NCBI GenBank assembly: GCA_902797305.1
Contig: CADBSK010000013.1
Span: 1-64,000, forward strand
DNA length: 64,000 nt
DNA from: an uncultured Spirochaetaceae bacterium
GTDB lineage: Bacteria; Spirochaetota; Spirochaetia; Treponematales; Treponemataceae
Direction of reading: 5' to 3'
Shown here: one piece after another, positions 11,305-17,719 of the stretch
Numbering within the stretch: position 1 is the stretch's first letter
Layout of the letters: the number at the start of each line of letters is the position of its first letter
Notes under the pieces: generated by a model
The model's database searches: none
What the model was told of the DNA's origin: nothing
The model's input: only the letters and a program-made list of their open reading frames with translations
Translations under genes and position numbers: made by a program

Positions 11305-14300
11305 TTAAGAAGGAACATGGATGATTTCTCGAGGTTTAGAGCCGTTTGCAGGACCTACAATTCCTCTTTCTTCCATTTCTTCTACCAGGCGGGCTGCGCG
11401 GTTATAACCAATGCTTAATCGTCGCTGAAGATAACTTGCACTTGCTTTGCCAGACTGAATAACTATATCAAGGGCTTGTTCGTAGAGAGGGTCTCCGGAA
11501 CCGTCATTAAACAGTCCTGTTCCACCTCCATTTTCATCTTCTTCGTCTTCTACAAAGATTTCATCGTCGATATATTCTGGTTCACCGAGAGTTTTTACAA
11601 AATCAACAACAGCTTCTACATCGTTATCGCTTTCGAAAGTTCCCTGAATTCTTACTGGATATGGATCCACTGCACTTGCGTAGAGCATGTCACCCTTACC
11701 AAGAAGTTTTTCTGCACCAACAGAGTCGATGATAATGTTAGAATCGGTACGGCTTGAAACCATGAATGCAATTCGGCTTGGGATGTTTGCCTTGATTAAA
11801 CCTGTAATTACGTTTACAGAAGGTCGCTGGGTAGCAAGAACAAGGTGAATACCTACAGCGCGGCTCATTGCGGTTAATCGGGCAACGATGCTTTCGAGAT
11901 CGCGACCACTGGTTGCCATAAGGTCTGCAAATTCGTCTATGATGACAACTATGTAAGGCAATTTTTCGGTGCAGATATTTCTTTCCTGGATTCGCTTGTT
12001 GTAGTTAGAAATATCACGAACTCCCATTCCGTCTAAAAGCGCGTAGCGGCGTTCCATTTCGCAAAGACAATACTGAAGAGCCTGAATTGCTTTTTTGGGT
12101 TCAGTAATTACAGGAGTCAAAAGATGTGGAATGTCATTGTAGAGTTTAAGTTCAACTACTTTTGGGTCTACAAGAATCATTTTTACTTCTTTTGGAGAGC
12201 GTTTGTACAAAATAGAAAGAATGAGGGAGTTTACACAAACAGATTTTCCGGCACCGGTTGCACCTGCAATCAAAAGGTGAGGTGTTTTTGCAATGTCGAT
12301 AATCTGGCTTTTTCCAAGGATGTCTTTTCCTAGAATAACCGGAATGGCCATTTTCTTAAATTCCGGTAAGTCCTGTTCAATCATTTCGCGGAAAGAAACA
12401 ATTGAACGCTTTTTGTTTGGTATTTCGATACCAACGGCTGCTTTTCCTGGGATTGGGGCTACGATACGAACGCTGCTTGCGGCAAGACTTAAAGCGATAT
12501 TGTCCTGAAGTCCTACGATACGGCTAAGTTTTACACCTGGTGCAGGGGCGATTTCGAACATTGTAACAACCGGGCCTTTTTTTACACCGATTACTTCTGC
12601 ACTGATGCCAAACTGATTCAAGGTTTCTTTGAGTTTAAGTGCGTCCTGTTTTGTTGCATCGTCGATTATCCAGTACTGGTCGTCTTCGTATTCTTCAAGT
12701 AAATCTGTTGGAACGATGTATGGTTTTTTAGGTGCAACGCGATTGGTTTTTGGACTGTTATCGGTTGCAATAGTTGTTCGTTTTGGTTCTTGAGAATCAA
12801 AGATATTTTTTTCTGCAGAAGGAACTGGAACAGAAATTTCCTGGTCTTCATCTGCCTGGTCTGCCCTGCTTTCGGAATCTAGCTCTGTATTTAGCTCTGA
12901 ATCCGATTCTGAATCATCAGATGCTTTTGCGCTGGCGTAGATTGATTCCTCCGGCTTGTATGGAGTTCCATTTTCTAATTCATCTTTTGCGTCTGCGGCC
13001 ATGTCAGCAAATACATCGCTTGCAATTCCAAATCCTGATGGTTCTAAATCGAATCGGGTTGGAGCTGATTCTTCTGAGATACCTCTTTCGTCTGAGGTGT
13101 GGATTTCTTCTGAGAGGTCAGTTTCTTCTGTGTGATCTGCTTCTTCCTCTACAGAGTTGTTTTCACTATAAGAATCATCTTCTTCGCTATAATCGGTTTC
13201 CTCGATTTTGCTTTCTTCTGTTGTCGGGTCGATATCAAAAAAGTCCTCTGAGAGAGTGTCAGGAGAAAAGTCGTCTTCGGAGATGCTTTCATTTAAGCTT
13301 ACTTCAAAGTCATTTGCAGCCTGTTCAAAAGCTTCGTCCAGTTCTTTAGCGGCTTCTTCTGGGGTATAAGCCTGTTCATTTGTAGGTTCTTCAGAAGGTT
13401 CTGTTTCTGCCTCATTAAATTGTTCAGAGGTTTCTTCTTTCTGTGGGGTAAAATCAAAATCGGTGATTTGACTTTCAGGGTCCTCAAAATCATCTTTAGG
13501 TTCTGAGTAAAGTTCTTCTGAATTAGAGTTATAATCCTGTTCGTCGTTACCGTAAGGGGATTTATAAGCTGAATATGAATCTGTTTGTTCAGCTTCGGTT
13601 TCTTCTATAGAGTCTGTTTCTGATGCTGTATCTGGTTGTTCTGCAGAATAACTTTCTGTGTTTGCATAGGATTCTTCTGCGGAATAGCTTTCGGTTTCTG
13701 CATCGGTACCTGTTTCTTTTTCAGATTCATTTAAGTCTTCGTCTGTAAAGGCAAGGGCAGCGTATTCTTCCTGGGTTATAAAGGCTCCTGGATTTTCTGA
13801 ATCTTCATGGGCTACTGTATTTTCTGATTCTGATGAAGTGGATTCTTGTTCGTTTACGCTAGTTTCTGGTTCTTCATCAAAAACATGGGCAAATGGGTCG
13901 TCTTTTGGCGGAATATATTCTTCTTGTGAATCTGTGGCTGGAGAATTGTAGTTTTCAGAATCAGGATTTTCCTCAAAGGAATCGTTGTCATCTGAGAGAG
14001 ATGTTTGTTCGCTTATAGAATTTTCCTTCTCTTCAGAGGAATCAGAATCTTGGTTTATAACGGCATTGCTTTTTTTGCCGTTAAAGAGTTTTTCGCCGAT
14101 AATTCCTGCTAAAAGAATTTCGATTACGATAAGCATTATTCCGATTAAAATGGCTAAAGTTAATTTTATTGTAGTAAAATCATCGTAACTTGAGGCCTGA
14201 ATTGAGTCGCAAAATTTTTCTGTTCCTACGGCTGTAAAGAAAGGAATGATTGCTGTTATCAGTCGCATCGATTTTTTTCCATTCCATCTTGATGTAAAAC

Positions 14301-14517
14301 ATGAAATTGCGGCTATAAAAATAAATACAGGAATCAAAATACTTGAATATCCGTACGCCTTAGAAAGAATTTGGCCAAGTTTATTCAAAAAATTGAAATT
14401 TGGGTTTTCTAAAGCACCTAAATCAATGAATTGGGTCAAAATTGTTAATGTGAAAAATGCCGCTACAAGTAAAAGAATAAAGCCGGCACCGATGTTAGGT
14501 TTATTTGATTTCTTCAT
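11305..14517 (-). CDS. ftsK: DNA translocase FtsK/SpoIIIE with long acidic linker
   Basis: A septum-located ATP-driven pump that moves chromosomes through the closing septum. The 1070-residue protein starts at MKKSNKPNIG. Four membrane helices come first (about 9-30, 47-68, 76-93 and 113-137). A linker of roughly 450 residues follows, extremely rich in Glu, Ser and Asp, with short near-repeats such as YSAEE. The motor (about 590-990) has Walker A GATGAGKS and Walker B VVIIDEFADL. The C-terminal gamma winged helix (IGYNRAARLVEEMEERGIVG) recognises polarity sequences. Upstream in-frame codons before 14517 look non-coding. The ATG follows a GATAAT box by six bases without a Shine-Dalgarno. Confidence 0.96.
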   Translation of the reverse strand: MKKSNKPNIGAGFILLLVAAFFTLTILTQFIDLGALENPNFNFLNKLGQILSKAYGYSSILIPVFIFIAAISCFTSRWNGKKSMRLITAIIPFFTAVGTEKFCDSIQASSYDDFTTIKLTLAILIGIMLIVIEILLAGIIGEKLFNGKKSNAVINQDSDSSEEKENSISEQTSLSDDNDSFEENPDSENYNSPATDSQEEYIPPKDDPFAHVFDEEPETSVNEQESTSSESENTVAHEDSENPGAFITQEEYAALAFTDEDLNESEKETGTDAETESYSAEESYANTESYSAEQPDTASETDSIEETEAEQTDSYSAYKSPYGNDEQDYNSNSEELYSEPKDDFEDPESQITDFDFTPQKEETSEQFNEAETEPSEEPTNEQAYTPEEAAKELDEAFEQAANDFEVSLNESISEDDFSPDTLSEDFFDIDPTTEESKIEETDYSEEDDSYSENNSVEEEADHTEETDLSEEIHTSDERGISEESAPTRFDLEPSGFGIASDVFADMAADAKDELENGTPYKPEESIYASAKASDDSESDSELNTELDSESRADQADEDQEISVPVPSAEKNIFDSQEPKRTTIATDNSPKTNRVAPKKPYIVPTDLLEEYEDDQYWIIDDATKQDALKLKETLNQFGISAEVIGVKKGPVVTMFEIAPAPGVKLSRIVGLQDNIALSLAASSVRIVAPIPGKAAVGIEIPNKKRSIVSFREMIEQDLPEFKKMAIPVILGKDILGKSQIIDIAKTPHLLIAGATGAGKSVCVNSLILSILYKRSPKEVKMILVDPKVVELKLYNDIPHLLTPVITEPKKAIQALQYCLCEMERRYALLDGMGVRDISNYNKRIQERNICTEKLPYIVVIIDEFADLMATSGRDLESIVARLTAMSRAVGIHLVLATQRPSVNVITGLIKANIPSRIAFMVSSRTDSNIIIDSVGAEKLLGKGDMLYASAVDPYPVRIQGTFESDNDVEAVVDFVKTLGEPEYIDDEIFVEDEEDENGGGTGLFNDGSGDPLYEQALDIVIQSGKASASYLQRRLSIGYNRAARLVEEMEERGIVGPANGSKPREIIHVPS

Positions 14518-14760
14518 AATCACATTATCGGAAAAAAAATAATTCAATTTTAAATTTTTTTTAGTAATATTTGTGCTTTTTGGTGTATCAAAAGCGATTA
14601 ATAGTGTAGAGGGAAGAAGAAAATAGAAAAGGAAACGAAAATTGATGTTGATTGAATTATAAAATATTGTTAATGTGTTGGTGAGTACAAAAAGTGTTTT
14701 CTTCAGGTCACGGTGCTGACTTCTTTCCCTCATTTTATTTTTTCAAAATGGGAGAAAAAA

Positions 14761-15549
14761 ATGAAATCCTTTTTATCAAAGTTCCAGACAATGAATTTTG
14801 ACCAGCTTATTGCCGTAAATGGCGGCTACGGTGGTGGTTCAGGAGGTTCTGGTAGTTCCAGTTGTAGCGGAGGTGGGTACAGTTCCTCAAGTGGCTTAAC
14901 TGCTGCCCGTTATGTTAACGCTCGTAATCGTGCAAAGGAACTCGCTGCAAAAGCAGCTGCAAAAAACGGTGGTTCAAGTTACAGCCTTCCGAGTACCGGA
15001 TACGATGCTCTAACAAACGGCCTGAATTCCGAACGATACACCCAGGCCCGCGATAACGCAGAAAAAAGAAAGAAGGAGGAAGAGGCGGCAGCAGCAAAAA
15101 AACAGGCTGAACTGGAAGCTCAAAAAAAGGCGGAATATGAAGCCTTTAATGCTTATATTGAGAATCAAAAAACTAAAAAAGGTGAATATGACCTTGGAAC
15201 TTTTGACTGCGACATATGGGTACAGGAAACTCTTAAAAATCTTGGAAAAGATATAACAGAACAATGGAATGATGCTAAAACAACAAATGTTGCAGGACAT
15301 GAACAGGCTCTTGAAGGACAGACTACAAATACACCTGAGAATGGCTGGAGTGTAGTTTTGATGACGGATTCAGATAAATATTCGATTAATCATACGGGCT
15401 TGATACGCGTAAATGATGATGGTTCTTGTGATTTATATCAGAATTCAAAGTATTGTCCTTATGAAGAACATTATAGTTCTGTTAAAGAGTTTGAAAATTC
15501 CTATGCTTACAATGATTTTGATTATTTACATGTTTTAGGAAAAAAATAA
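14761..15549 (+). CDS. Double-glycine-leader protein with Cys/His hydrolase-like C-terminus
   Basis: I do not recognise a named family. The first 22 residues (MKSFLSKFQTMNFDQL, then IAVNGG) look like a double-glycine leader of the kind cut by C39-peptidase ABC exporters. A Gly/Ser-rich stretch follows (23-45). Two related helical motifs, LTAARYVNARNRA (about 46-58) and LNSERYTQARDNA (88-100), lead into a charged Ala/Lys/Glu helix to about 138. The C-terminal 125 residues have FDC at 148-150 and NHTGLI at 210-215. This is the Cys...His order of NlpC/P60 or CHAP hydrolases, though too weak to assign. GGGAG precedes the ATG at 14761. The next gene, 37 bases on, encodes a secreted WG-repeat protein. 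No exporter is in the window. Confidence 0.72.
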   Translation: MKSFLSKFQTMNFDQLIAVNGGYGGGSGGSGSSSCSGGGYSSSSGLTAARYVNARNRAKELAAKAAAKNGGSSYSLPSTGYDALTNGLNSERYTQARDNAEKRKKEEEAAAAKKQAELEAQKKAEYEAFNAYIENQKTKKGEYDLGTFDCDIWVQETLKNLGKDITEQWNDAKTTNVAGHEQALEGQTTNTPENGWSVVLMTDSDKYSINHTGLIRVNDDGSCDLYQNSKYCPYEEHYSSVKEFENSYAYNDFDYLHVLGKK

Positions 15550-15585
15550 TGACTAATATTTAATTGAGGATATTAAGGAAAAAAT

Positions 15586-16590
15586 ATGAAACGAATTGAT
15601 GGATTACTTAAAGTTTGTTTGATGGTTGTTATGGGGACAGTTTGCTTGTGGGGAGAGACTCATAATAGACGGTTTATAAATTCTTCCTGGCAATATGGAA
15701 TCATAGATGATAATTTTAATGTCATTATTCCACCCAAATATAAATATGCCGGAAAATATTCTGAAGGTGCCGTCAATGTTGAGTTGTCACAAGGTGAATG
15801 GGCATTAATAGACAAAAACGAAAATGTCCTTTGCAAGGTAAAAGCTAAACGACTGAGTAGTTTACATAATGGCTGGGCAATTGCAGACACAGAAAGCAAT
15901 GAAAGATTTTATATAAATAAAAAGGGAAAAGTTATGGGAAACTATGGTTTTGCTTCTGAGTTTAATGAAGGAAAAGCATATGTAAGCCCAGAAAATTCCG
16001 GAGGATATTTTATAAATTCAGACGGTGAGAAAATTTCTGAAGATTTACCATATAGGTCTGCTGTGTATGCGGAAAACGGTTTATGGTTAGTTTATTGTAA
16101 TGGAGAGGGGGTTATTAACAGTAACTATCAGGAAATTGTTCCGTGTGCAAGACCTGCTATCGATATTGCAGGTGAAGGATATTTTGTTTCAATGTTACCT
16201 GAAGATTTATCCAGATGTTGTTTTTTGGATTCAAAAGGAAAAAGAGTTGGTTCTGTAACTTTTAAGCATTCTTCGAGAGTGTATAACGGAATTGCCTTTA
16301 TCAAGAAACCGGAATCTAGTGATGCTTATATTTATGATTTAAAGAACGATAAGCTTACAGGTCCGCTTAAAAACTGTGAAAGAATGAACAAGGAAAGCAA
16401 AAATATTGTTCTTATTAAAAAGATTGAAGATAAGTGGAAATATGTTGTCGTAAATCGTAATAATGAACAGATTTGTCCTGTTTATTTTGATGAATTTATG
16501 GATGAATCGGATGAAATGCTTTGGATGCAAAAGGACGGAAAAGATTTTATTGTAAACTCTAAGGGTATGTATTGGTCTTTTGCTAAGTAA
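15586..16590 (+). CDS. Secreted WG-repeat protein
   Basis: A 334-residue protein with an N-terminal signal peptide (cleavage near residue 23, after LWG or GET) and several WG/KWG-type repeats. Examples are WQYGIIDDNFNVIIPPKY, EWALIDKNENVL, ERFYINKKGKV, GGYFINSDGEKI, GVINSNYQEIVP and KWKYVVVNRNNEQICPVYFDEF. Each repeat is about 35-45 residues with a hydrophobic strand, a turn and a basic residue. WG-repeat proteins are usually exported and of unknown role. AAGGA sits near the ATG. It lies just after the double-glycine-leader gene, so co-transcription is likely; a partner or immunity role is conceivable but unproven. Confidence 0.82.
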   Translation: MKRIDGLLKVCLMVVMGTVCLWGETHNRRFINSSWQYGIIDDNFNVIIPPKYKYAGKYSEGAVNVELSQGEWALIDKNENVLCKVKAKRLSSLHNGWAIADTESNERFYINKKGKVMGNYGFASEFNEGKAYVSPENSGGYFINSDGEKISEDLPYRSAVYAENGLWLVYCNGEGVINSNYQEIVPCARPAIDIAGEGYFVSMLPEDLSRCCFLDSKGKRVGSVTFKHSSRVYNGIAFIKKPESSDAYIYDLKNDKLTGPLKNCERMNKESKNIVLIKKIEDKWKYVVVNRNNEQICPVYFDEFMDESDEMLWMQKDGKDFIVNSKGMYWSFAK

Positions 16591-16633: not shown

Positions 16634-17719
16634 ATGTTGAATTCGACAGTAAAAACAATTGGCATTCTTACTTCTGGGGGTGATGCTCCGGGGTTGAATG
16701 CTGCTATCCGCGGTGTTTGTTACTCTTGTATCGATAAGTATGGAATCAAGGTTGTAGGCTTTAGAGATGGTTATCGCGGTTTGATTAATGGTGATGCTTT
16801 TTCTCTTTCTAAAGAAAATGTTTCTGATCTTTTGGCAGAAGGTGGTACTTTTTTGGGTACGTCCAGGTGCAAACCTTTTAAGAAGCCTGTAGAAGATCCT
16901 GAAACTGGTTTGTTACCCGTTGATGCGATAAAGAAAAATTACAAGAAATTTAAGCTTGATGGATTAATCGTTCTTGGTGGTAATGGAACAAATACAACTG
17001 CAAGTTTGCTTGCTCAAGAAGGCTTGAATGTGATTGGGCTTCCGAAGACTATTGATAATGATATTGTAGGAACTGATGTTACATTTGGTTTTCATACGGC
17101 AGTGCAGGTTGCGACTGATTCAATAGATAGAATTCGTTCTACGGCGCGTAGTCATGGCCGAATCATGGTTGTAGAAGTGATGGGTCATAAGGCCGGGTGG
17201 TTAGGCTTGTATTCTGCGATTGCTGGTGGAGCTGACGTCTGTTTAATACCGGAAATACCTTATGACATAAATGTAGTGGCACAGAGCGTGATGGAAAAGC
17301 AAAACTCTGGCAAGGGTTATACGATTATAGTTGTTGCGGAAGGTGCTTTGTCTAAAGAAGAAGCTAAACTGGATAAGAAGGCTTTGAAAAAAGCAAGGGC
17401 TTCGATGGAACAATCTATCGGCTTTAGAGTTGCTAAAGAACTGGAAGCGGTCATTGGTAATGAGATTCGTGTAACGGTGCTTGGGTATTTGCAGAGAGGA
17501 GGAGTTCCTTCTCCGTATGACCGTGTTCTTGCTACGCAATTTGGAACTTATGCGGCTGACCTGGCTTTTAAGGGTGAGTTTGGCAAGTTAGTTGCAATGC
17601 AGAATAACGCTGTTGTTGGTATTCCTTTGGAAACTTGTGCTGGCAAAGTAAAAAATATTCAAAATGATGAGCCTTTGGTTCAGACTGGAAAGTCTGTAGG
17701 AATTTGTTTTGGCGACTAG
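16634..17719 (+). CDS. pfkA: 6-phosphofructokinase (group III type)
   Basis: Phosphorylates fructose 6-phosphate in glycolysis. The 361-residue protein begins GILTSGGDAPGLNAAIRG and carries PKTIDNDI with the catalytic aspartate, MGHKAGW for substrate binding and LGYLQRGG near the end. The donor site reads GGNGTNT where E. coli has GGDGS: the glycine at position 104 favours ATP, but the lysine in PKTIDND (position 124) is the residue seen in PPi enzymes. This G104/K124 pair occurs in actinobacterial ATP enzymes, so ATP is more likely, not certain. The metal-binding Asp of GGDG is replaced by Asn. The next gene overlaps or abuts its end. Confidence 0.93.
   Translation: MLNSTVKTIGILTSGGDAPGLNAAIRGVCYSCIDKYGIKVVGFRDGYRGLINGDAFSLSKENVSDLLAEGGTFLGTSRCKPFKKPVEDPETGLLPVDAIKKNYKKFKLDGLIVLGGNGTNTTASLLAQEGLNVIGLPKTIDNDIVGTDVTFGFHTAVQVATDSIDRIRSTARSHGRIMVVEVMGHKAGWLGLYSAIAGGADVCLIPEIPYDINVVAQSVMEKQNSGKGYTIIVVAEGALSKEEAKLDKKALKKARASMEQSIGFRVAKELEAVIGNEIRVTVLGYLQRGGVPSPYDRVLATQFGTYAADLAFKGEFGKLVAMQNNAVVGIPLETCAGKVKNIQNDEPLVQTGKSVGICFGD

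Follow-up and report, generated by a model that had tools for sequence, protein, structure and literature searches.

What might a 262-residue protein with a double-glycine leader be doing between two housekeeping genes of a spirochaete, directly upstream of a secreted WG-repeat protein? The question is raised by a 64,000-nucleotide stretch of DNA from an uncultured Spirochaetaceae bacterium (contig CADBSK010000013.1 of assembly GCA_902797305.1; hereafter the window), whose source assembly of 2.53 Mb is 87% complete and whose nearest named relative is a Treponema metagenome-assembled genome from cattle abomasum. The interval between ftsK (- strand) and pfkA (+ strand) holds two + strand genes, an effector gene (14761..15549) and then a WG-repeat gene (15586..16590). 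Judging from sequence comparisons, the two genes probably encode a polymorphic toxin exported by a C39 type I system and its cognate immunity protein; the toxin would target peptidoglycan, and the WG-repeat protein would confer immunity in the periplasm.

The architecture that a first-pass annotation had described for the effector, a putative polymorphic toxin, was found in full. Its ATG start is preceded, six bases upstream, by a Shine-Dalgarno-like GGGAG (14750..14754, +), and opens a 22-residue leader ending in VNGG (MKSFLSKFQTMNFDQLIAVNGG, 14761..14826). A Gly/Ser-rich stretch, two RYxxAR motifs (RYVNAR and RYTQAR) and a charged helix rich in Lys, Glu and Ala follow (14827..15180); this part is similar in the homologue L008 and might serve as a linker or possibly in receptor binding. 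The C-terminus is a Cys/His hydrolase-like domain (residues 141-262, 15181..15546) with the motifs FDC (C150) and NHTGLI (H211). In an alignment of 19 diverse homologues, with identities down to ∼20%, C150 (15208-15210), D151, H180 (15298-15300) and H211 (15391-15393) are invariant.

The secreted WG-repeat open reading frame (ORF) that had been annotated 37 bases 3' of the effector is indeed present, with the gap corrected to 36 bases. By visual inspection its product of 334 residues has a signal peptide of the Sec type, and it matches PF14903 (WG_beta_rep; 36.1 bits, cut-off 25.6, E 6.5e-9); it is encoded by the only PF14903 gene found in the host genome. Co-occurrence of the two genes, which the annotation had proposed as a check, extends to relatives: in 14 of the 19 toxin genomes, which hold about 20 PF14903 genes (binomial p ∼1e-43), such a gene comes next on the 3' side in the same orientation, and two further partners (L008, L015) are diverged WG homologues, giving 16/19. 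Toxin-domain identity correlates with partner identity (15 pairs, Mantel r 0.78, p 1e-4), and the partners start with hydrophobic, signal-peptide-like stretches, several of them with a lipobox (by eye). Since linkage, correlated identity and signal peptides or lipoboxes match the pattern of periplasmic immunity, we regard the WG-repeat protein as a putative periplasmic immunity protein; of the two roles offered in the annotation, immunity factor and partner, the former appears more likely.

Going beyond the annotation's proposal, the Cys/His domain is a mobile module shared between double-glycine (GG) leader, Rhs and tail-tube proteins across spirochaetes. The genus was searched in 200 genomes, first with the full-length protein and afterwards with a profile of the domain, and the phylum in 392. 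Occurrence is patchy, with matches to the full-protein query in 13 and to the domain profile in 21 of the 200 same-genus genomes (E 0.01), and the domain is also found in another family of the order (E down to 5e-43). It stands behind a GG leader in L008/L009, L014, L015, L017, L031-L035 and L044, as an Rhs-type tip in L011, L012 and L047 (with a “YAGNNPVKYTDPDG”-like junction; PF03527 below cut-off in L047), and fused to a T4-gp19 tail-tube protein in L013/L102. That related bacteria carry the same toxin part on other types of delivery protein points to a weapon system that has received little recognition. Two of the Rhs-type tips (L011:251-928 and L012:1513-1908) are orphans with WG-repeat lipoprotein partners, the L012 copy having an in-frame stop, and in L085:8543-9927 (genome G079) the GG-leader part and the Cys/His domain lie in two overlapping frames, reflecting either a frameshifted gene or an assembly error.

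The effector leader has hydrophobic residues at positions -4, -7, -12 and -15, matching classical GG leaders, and its GG ends at residue 22, after which a C39 peptidase is predicted to cleave. A 24-column leader profile (A3), of which the window protein is itself a member, matches this protein at E 1.1e-13, and the leader recurs in proteins of very different length adjoining C39 exporters, so that a chance match is not a plausible explanation. Searches among relatives and the leader profile show that the leader is conserved in homologues. Sister leaders reach TIGR03949 only below its cut-off, and in the (incomplete) host assembly the profile recognises the window protein alone. The statement that VNGG-type leaders normally belong to small bacteriocins needs a caveat, as supernatants of Treponema denticola hold GG proteins of 607-614 residues (PMC11879956). 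Short Gly/Ser-rich GG-leader proteins, for which no obvious enzyme domain was found, are encoded in L096:5003-5290 and L092:6780-7124, where a glycosyltransferase-like gene precedes them and a C39 exporter follows immediately.

Export through a C39-type transporter had been proposed, and the host genome encodes three exporters combining C39 with an ATP-binding cassette (ABC), on contigs 138, 65 and 97. The latter two belong to C39-ABC/HlyD/TolC-like operons without adjacent cargo, and the C39 of contig 138 lies inside a cluster of the type that makes ribosomally synthesised and post-translationally modified peptides (RiPPs), with radical-SAM/SPASM-like proteins. Across the genus, a C39 exporter was found in 21 of 22 genomes with a strong leader match vs 79 of 196 overall (Fisher p 1e-8), and all 11 of the 11 genomes carrying the GG form of the toxin have one; G023, G144 and G198, with Rhs or tail-tube forms only, are absent among the C39 matches listed, their inclusion in the sample being unconfirmed. 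Leader genes are found only a few kb away from an exporter in many relatives (linked in G043, G079, G033, G084, G016 and G124). Linkage is not an absolute requirement, given that T. denticola and G147 also carry unlinked exporter copies. The sole C39 exporter found in G062, the genome with the closest toxin homologue, shares 76% identity with that of contig 97, and because exporter clades broadly follow leader types the latter appears to be the most likely partner of the window effector. Contig 138 (L005:2114-12191) encodes C39-ABC, HlyD-like and SPASM-like proteins and small GG peptides, and also four S41-like proteins of ∼500 residues that share a nearly identical C-terminal tail (NETIFLVTQDEEMKQKLKGI). 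The C39 exporters beside the effector arrays of L083:4054-7832 (G382) and L088:6573-6941 (G016) look broken (a transposase-like ORF between two parts; an in-frame stop), and some arrays may therefore depend on exporters elsewhere.

The RiPP-type surroundings of the contig-138 C39 and the short Gly/Ser-rich GG proteins beside some exporters (L096, L092) would also fit a cargo of a secretion or RiPP system that functions in signalling or adhesion and whose Cys/His domain is inactive. Such an explanation has very little probability, as invariance of C150, D151, H180 and H211 across 19 homologues is not expected of a dead domain. A RiPP precursor was rejected, the mature part being a conserved enzyme-like domain.

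Several lines of comparison bear on the fold of this domain. In hhalign comparisons with 29 spirochaete NlpC/P60 domains, P ranged from 0.0007 to 0.0014, with C150 and H211 paired with the catalytic Cys and His, as against 0.27-0.65 for controls (C39, nucleotide-binding and transmembrane domains), and a distant member of the family, L049, matches CHAP (E 2e-4; 22 bits, below the cut-off of 26). A model of the trimmed domain, of low confidence (predicted local distance difference test, pLDDT, 60) and built from two sequences (window and L008), places C150 at the start of a helix (H10-20) and H211 on a strand (E69-77), as in the NlpC/P60 and CHAP arrangement. With this model VIA-align 2 gave many NlpC/P60, CHAP and C39 matches at Z 5-6.4, including the NlpC/P60 endopeptidase 4xcm (Z 6.4, root-mean-square deviation 3.5, 90 aligned residues) and the Staphylococcus aureus amidase 5t1q (Z 6.3, deviation 3.8, 99 aligned), and also returned Ly7917, LytE and C39 peptidases; Foldseek gave no confident match. 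A sequence search of the PDB yielded nothing significant (best 2im9, E 0.43), and Pfam, NCBIfam, PHROGs and PADLOC scans of the window proteins gave weak or no matches, PF14903 excepted. Taken in combination, the hhalign alignment, the L049-CHAP intermediate and the weak structure matches support placing the domain in the NlpC/P60-CHAP (papain-like) superfamily; this support does not extend to membership of PF00877 or PF05257. None of the three outcomes that the annotation had named as refuting was encountered: C39 exporters are present, the leader is conserved, and C150 and H211 are invariant and align with the catalytic residues of NlpC/P60. A first model that included the N-terminal helix was discarded (pLDDT 42, meaningless Foldseek matches), as was DUF6950 as parent family (E 0.02), since no DUF6950 gene was found in 198 genomes of the phylum and no alignment was possible.

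The company that the domain keeps gives some indication of its substrate. GG-leader arrays beside an exporter, with a common N-terminus and different C-termini, were found in L083, L085, L086, L087, L088 and L100, each protein usually followed by a secreted ORF. The C-termini include M15/VanY carboxypeptidase (L087, L101) and M23 endopeptidase (L088) domains, and one protein (L086:4112-5377) combines a GG leader, LysM and the Cys/His domain. The L102 region of G198 (L102:10632-19597) is a tail-tube based toxin array, in which T4-gp19 tail-tube proteins, three in tandem and almost identical at the N-terminus, end in the Cys/His domain, M23 and NlpC/P60, each again followed by a secreted ORF. 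One N-terminus with different tips in one genome, as in polymorphic toxins, thus occurs in relatives (L083, L085, L086, L087, L102) and was not found in the host genome. Because the sister effectors carry wall-acting domains (M23, M15/VanY, LysM, NlpC/P60), peptidoglycan seems, by analogy, the most likely substrate of the Cys/His domain. In the array of L087:419-6864 (G084), which adjoins a C39 exporter, one putative immunity ORF (1440-2240) encodes an FGE-sulfatase-like lipoprotein (PF03781).

Alternatively, the pair could still be a toxin and its immunity protein, but the substrate would be a periplasmic protein or some other amide or ester, and the Cys/His domain a papain-like protease, transglutaminase, deamidase or acyl hydrolase. 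AvrPphB, C39 peptidases and GtgE among the papain-like matches would be consistent with this, as would the additional invariant H180, and a Cys-protease toxin is reported to act on topoisomerases (PMC12136450). We nevertheless consider it unlikely, as peptidoglycan enzymes (M23, M15/VanY) occur as sister effectors in these arrays, one homologue carries LysM, and in the tail-tube array the domain occupies a slot used by M23 and NlpC/P60. An exported enzyme that remodels the producer's own wall, is regulated or anchored by the WG-repeat protein and has no function as a weapon is a still less probable explanation. The effector is present in a single copy in the host genome, LytE-IseA is among the fold matches and dedicated inhibitors are common for wall hydrolases, all of which would suit such an enzyme. 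The effector's patchy distribution, its insertion at a housekeeping locus, the exchange of the domain onto Rhs and tail-tube proteins, and arrays whose members are identical at the N-terminus and differ at the C-terminus speak against this explanation.

A toxin-immunity module directed at peptidoglycan would operate as follows. An unlinked C39 exporter of the same genome, most likely that of contig 97, would recognise the leader and cleave it behind Gly22, and the mature effector would exit in one step through ABC-HlyD-TolC. Once in the periplasm of a rival, its C-terminal domain, as a cysteine hydrolase of NlpC/P60-CHAP type, would cleave the peptides of peptidoglycan or a related amide of the wall, and the WG-repeat protein, exported to the producer's own periplasm, would bind and block the toxin.

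A number of observations weigh against this proposal. The window gene has no linked exporter in the host genome, and its pairing with one is by inference; three homologous toxins have secreted ORFs other than WG proteins as 3' neighbours. Concerning the enzyme, no family library matches the window domain over cut-off and the NlpC/P60 (PF00877) and CHAP (PF05257) profiles gave no match, one of 200 column shuffles comes close to the real hhalign score (25.7 vs 24.4-25.8; shuffle median 11.1), and invariant H180 has no counterpart in the NlpC/P60 triad. The structural model is mediocre, Z never exceeds 8, and designed beta barrels account for two of the top five VIA matches. T. denticola inhibited the growth of none of seven indicator strains (PMC11879956). 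Finally, a toxin secreted in the absence of an injection device would need a route across the outer membrane of its target. Gram-positive targets require no such crossing, but the periplasmic location of the putative immunity protein suggests that the toxin does get to kin cells.

Polymorphic toxins with NlpC/P60 tips are known (Tox-NLPC/P60; Zhang et al., 2012, PMC3482391). The systems described there share with the locus an N-terminal trafficking part, a variable C-terminal toxin, a 3' immunity gene and tips exchanged between delivery systems, and count NlpC/P60-like wall hydrolases as a toxin class. They differ in that the part of the survey drawn on here lists type II, V, VI, VII, PVC, PrsW and MuF routes, with neither a type I or double-glycine route nor WG-repeat immunity (PMC3482391); no description of either was found in the open-access literature. 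In T. denticola, the large GG proteins are encoded beside lipoproteins and tepA1-B1 and were detected in supernatants (PMC11879956, PMC4947327). Shared features are the large size of the GG-leader proteins, their duplication in tandem, lipoproteins nearby and C39-ABC/HlyD, whereas in T. denticola no enzymatic domain is reported (only similarity to the C-terminal region of ShdA), the lipoproteins lie upstream and the proteins are not described as toxin-immunity pairs.

Our comparisons make it rather likely that spirochaetes, and perhaps other Gram-negatives, possess a class of polymorphic toxins exported by C39 type I systems that carry peptidoglycan hydrolases and are countered by periplasmic immunity, the WG-repeat being one of the main immunity folds. 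Class II bacteriocins and microcins likewise combine a GG leader, a C39 exporter and the immunity principle, in their case with small peptides instead of a mature protein of 240 residues that contains a cysteine-hydrolase-like domain. The amidase effectors Tse1/Tae of type VI secretion systems are NlpC/P60-like cysteine wall hydrolases neutralised by periplasmic immunity proteins (Tsi1/Tai), but they are injected, and their immunity proteins come from other families. If it exists, the C39-toxin class would represent a new delivery route for polymorphic toxins (double-glycine leader and C39 type I exporter), would offer a testable function for WG-repeat proteins, which are mostly unexplained, and could account for Treponema's orphan exporters of the Tep type and its GG proteins, including the large secreted double-glycine proteins of T. 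denticola, the role of which had been left open. It would also raise the question by which route a wall hydrolase that is exported freely gets into Gram-negative target cells.

The annotation had further taken the two genes to be accessory genes between housekeeping genes, and this is borne out by comparison with relatives. The left flank, ftsK/spoIIIE (11305..14733, -), likely has its true start near 14517, and the right flank is pfkA (16634..17719, +). Since ftsK and pfkA are divergent immediate neighbours, with no intervening gene, in 12 of the 29 relatives examined, the effector-WG pair constitutes an insertion at this junction. Scans of phage and plasmid records and of IMG/VR revealed no relative, and an anti-phage defence function was rejected for want of a PADLOC match. 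In G124 and G189, GG-effector/exporter loci also adjoin an ftsK-like gene, as far as can be inferred from its N-terminal sequence.
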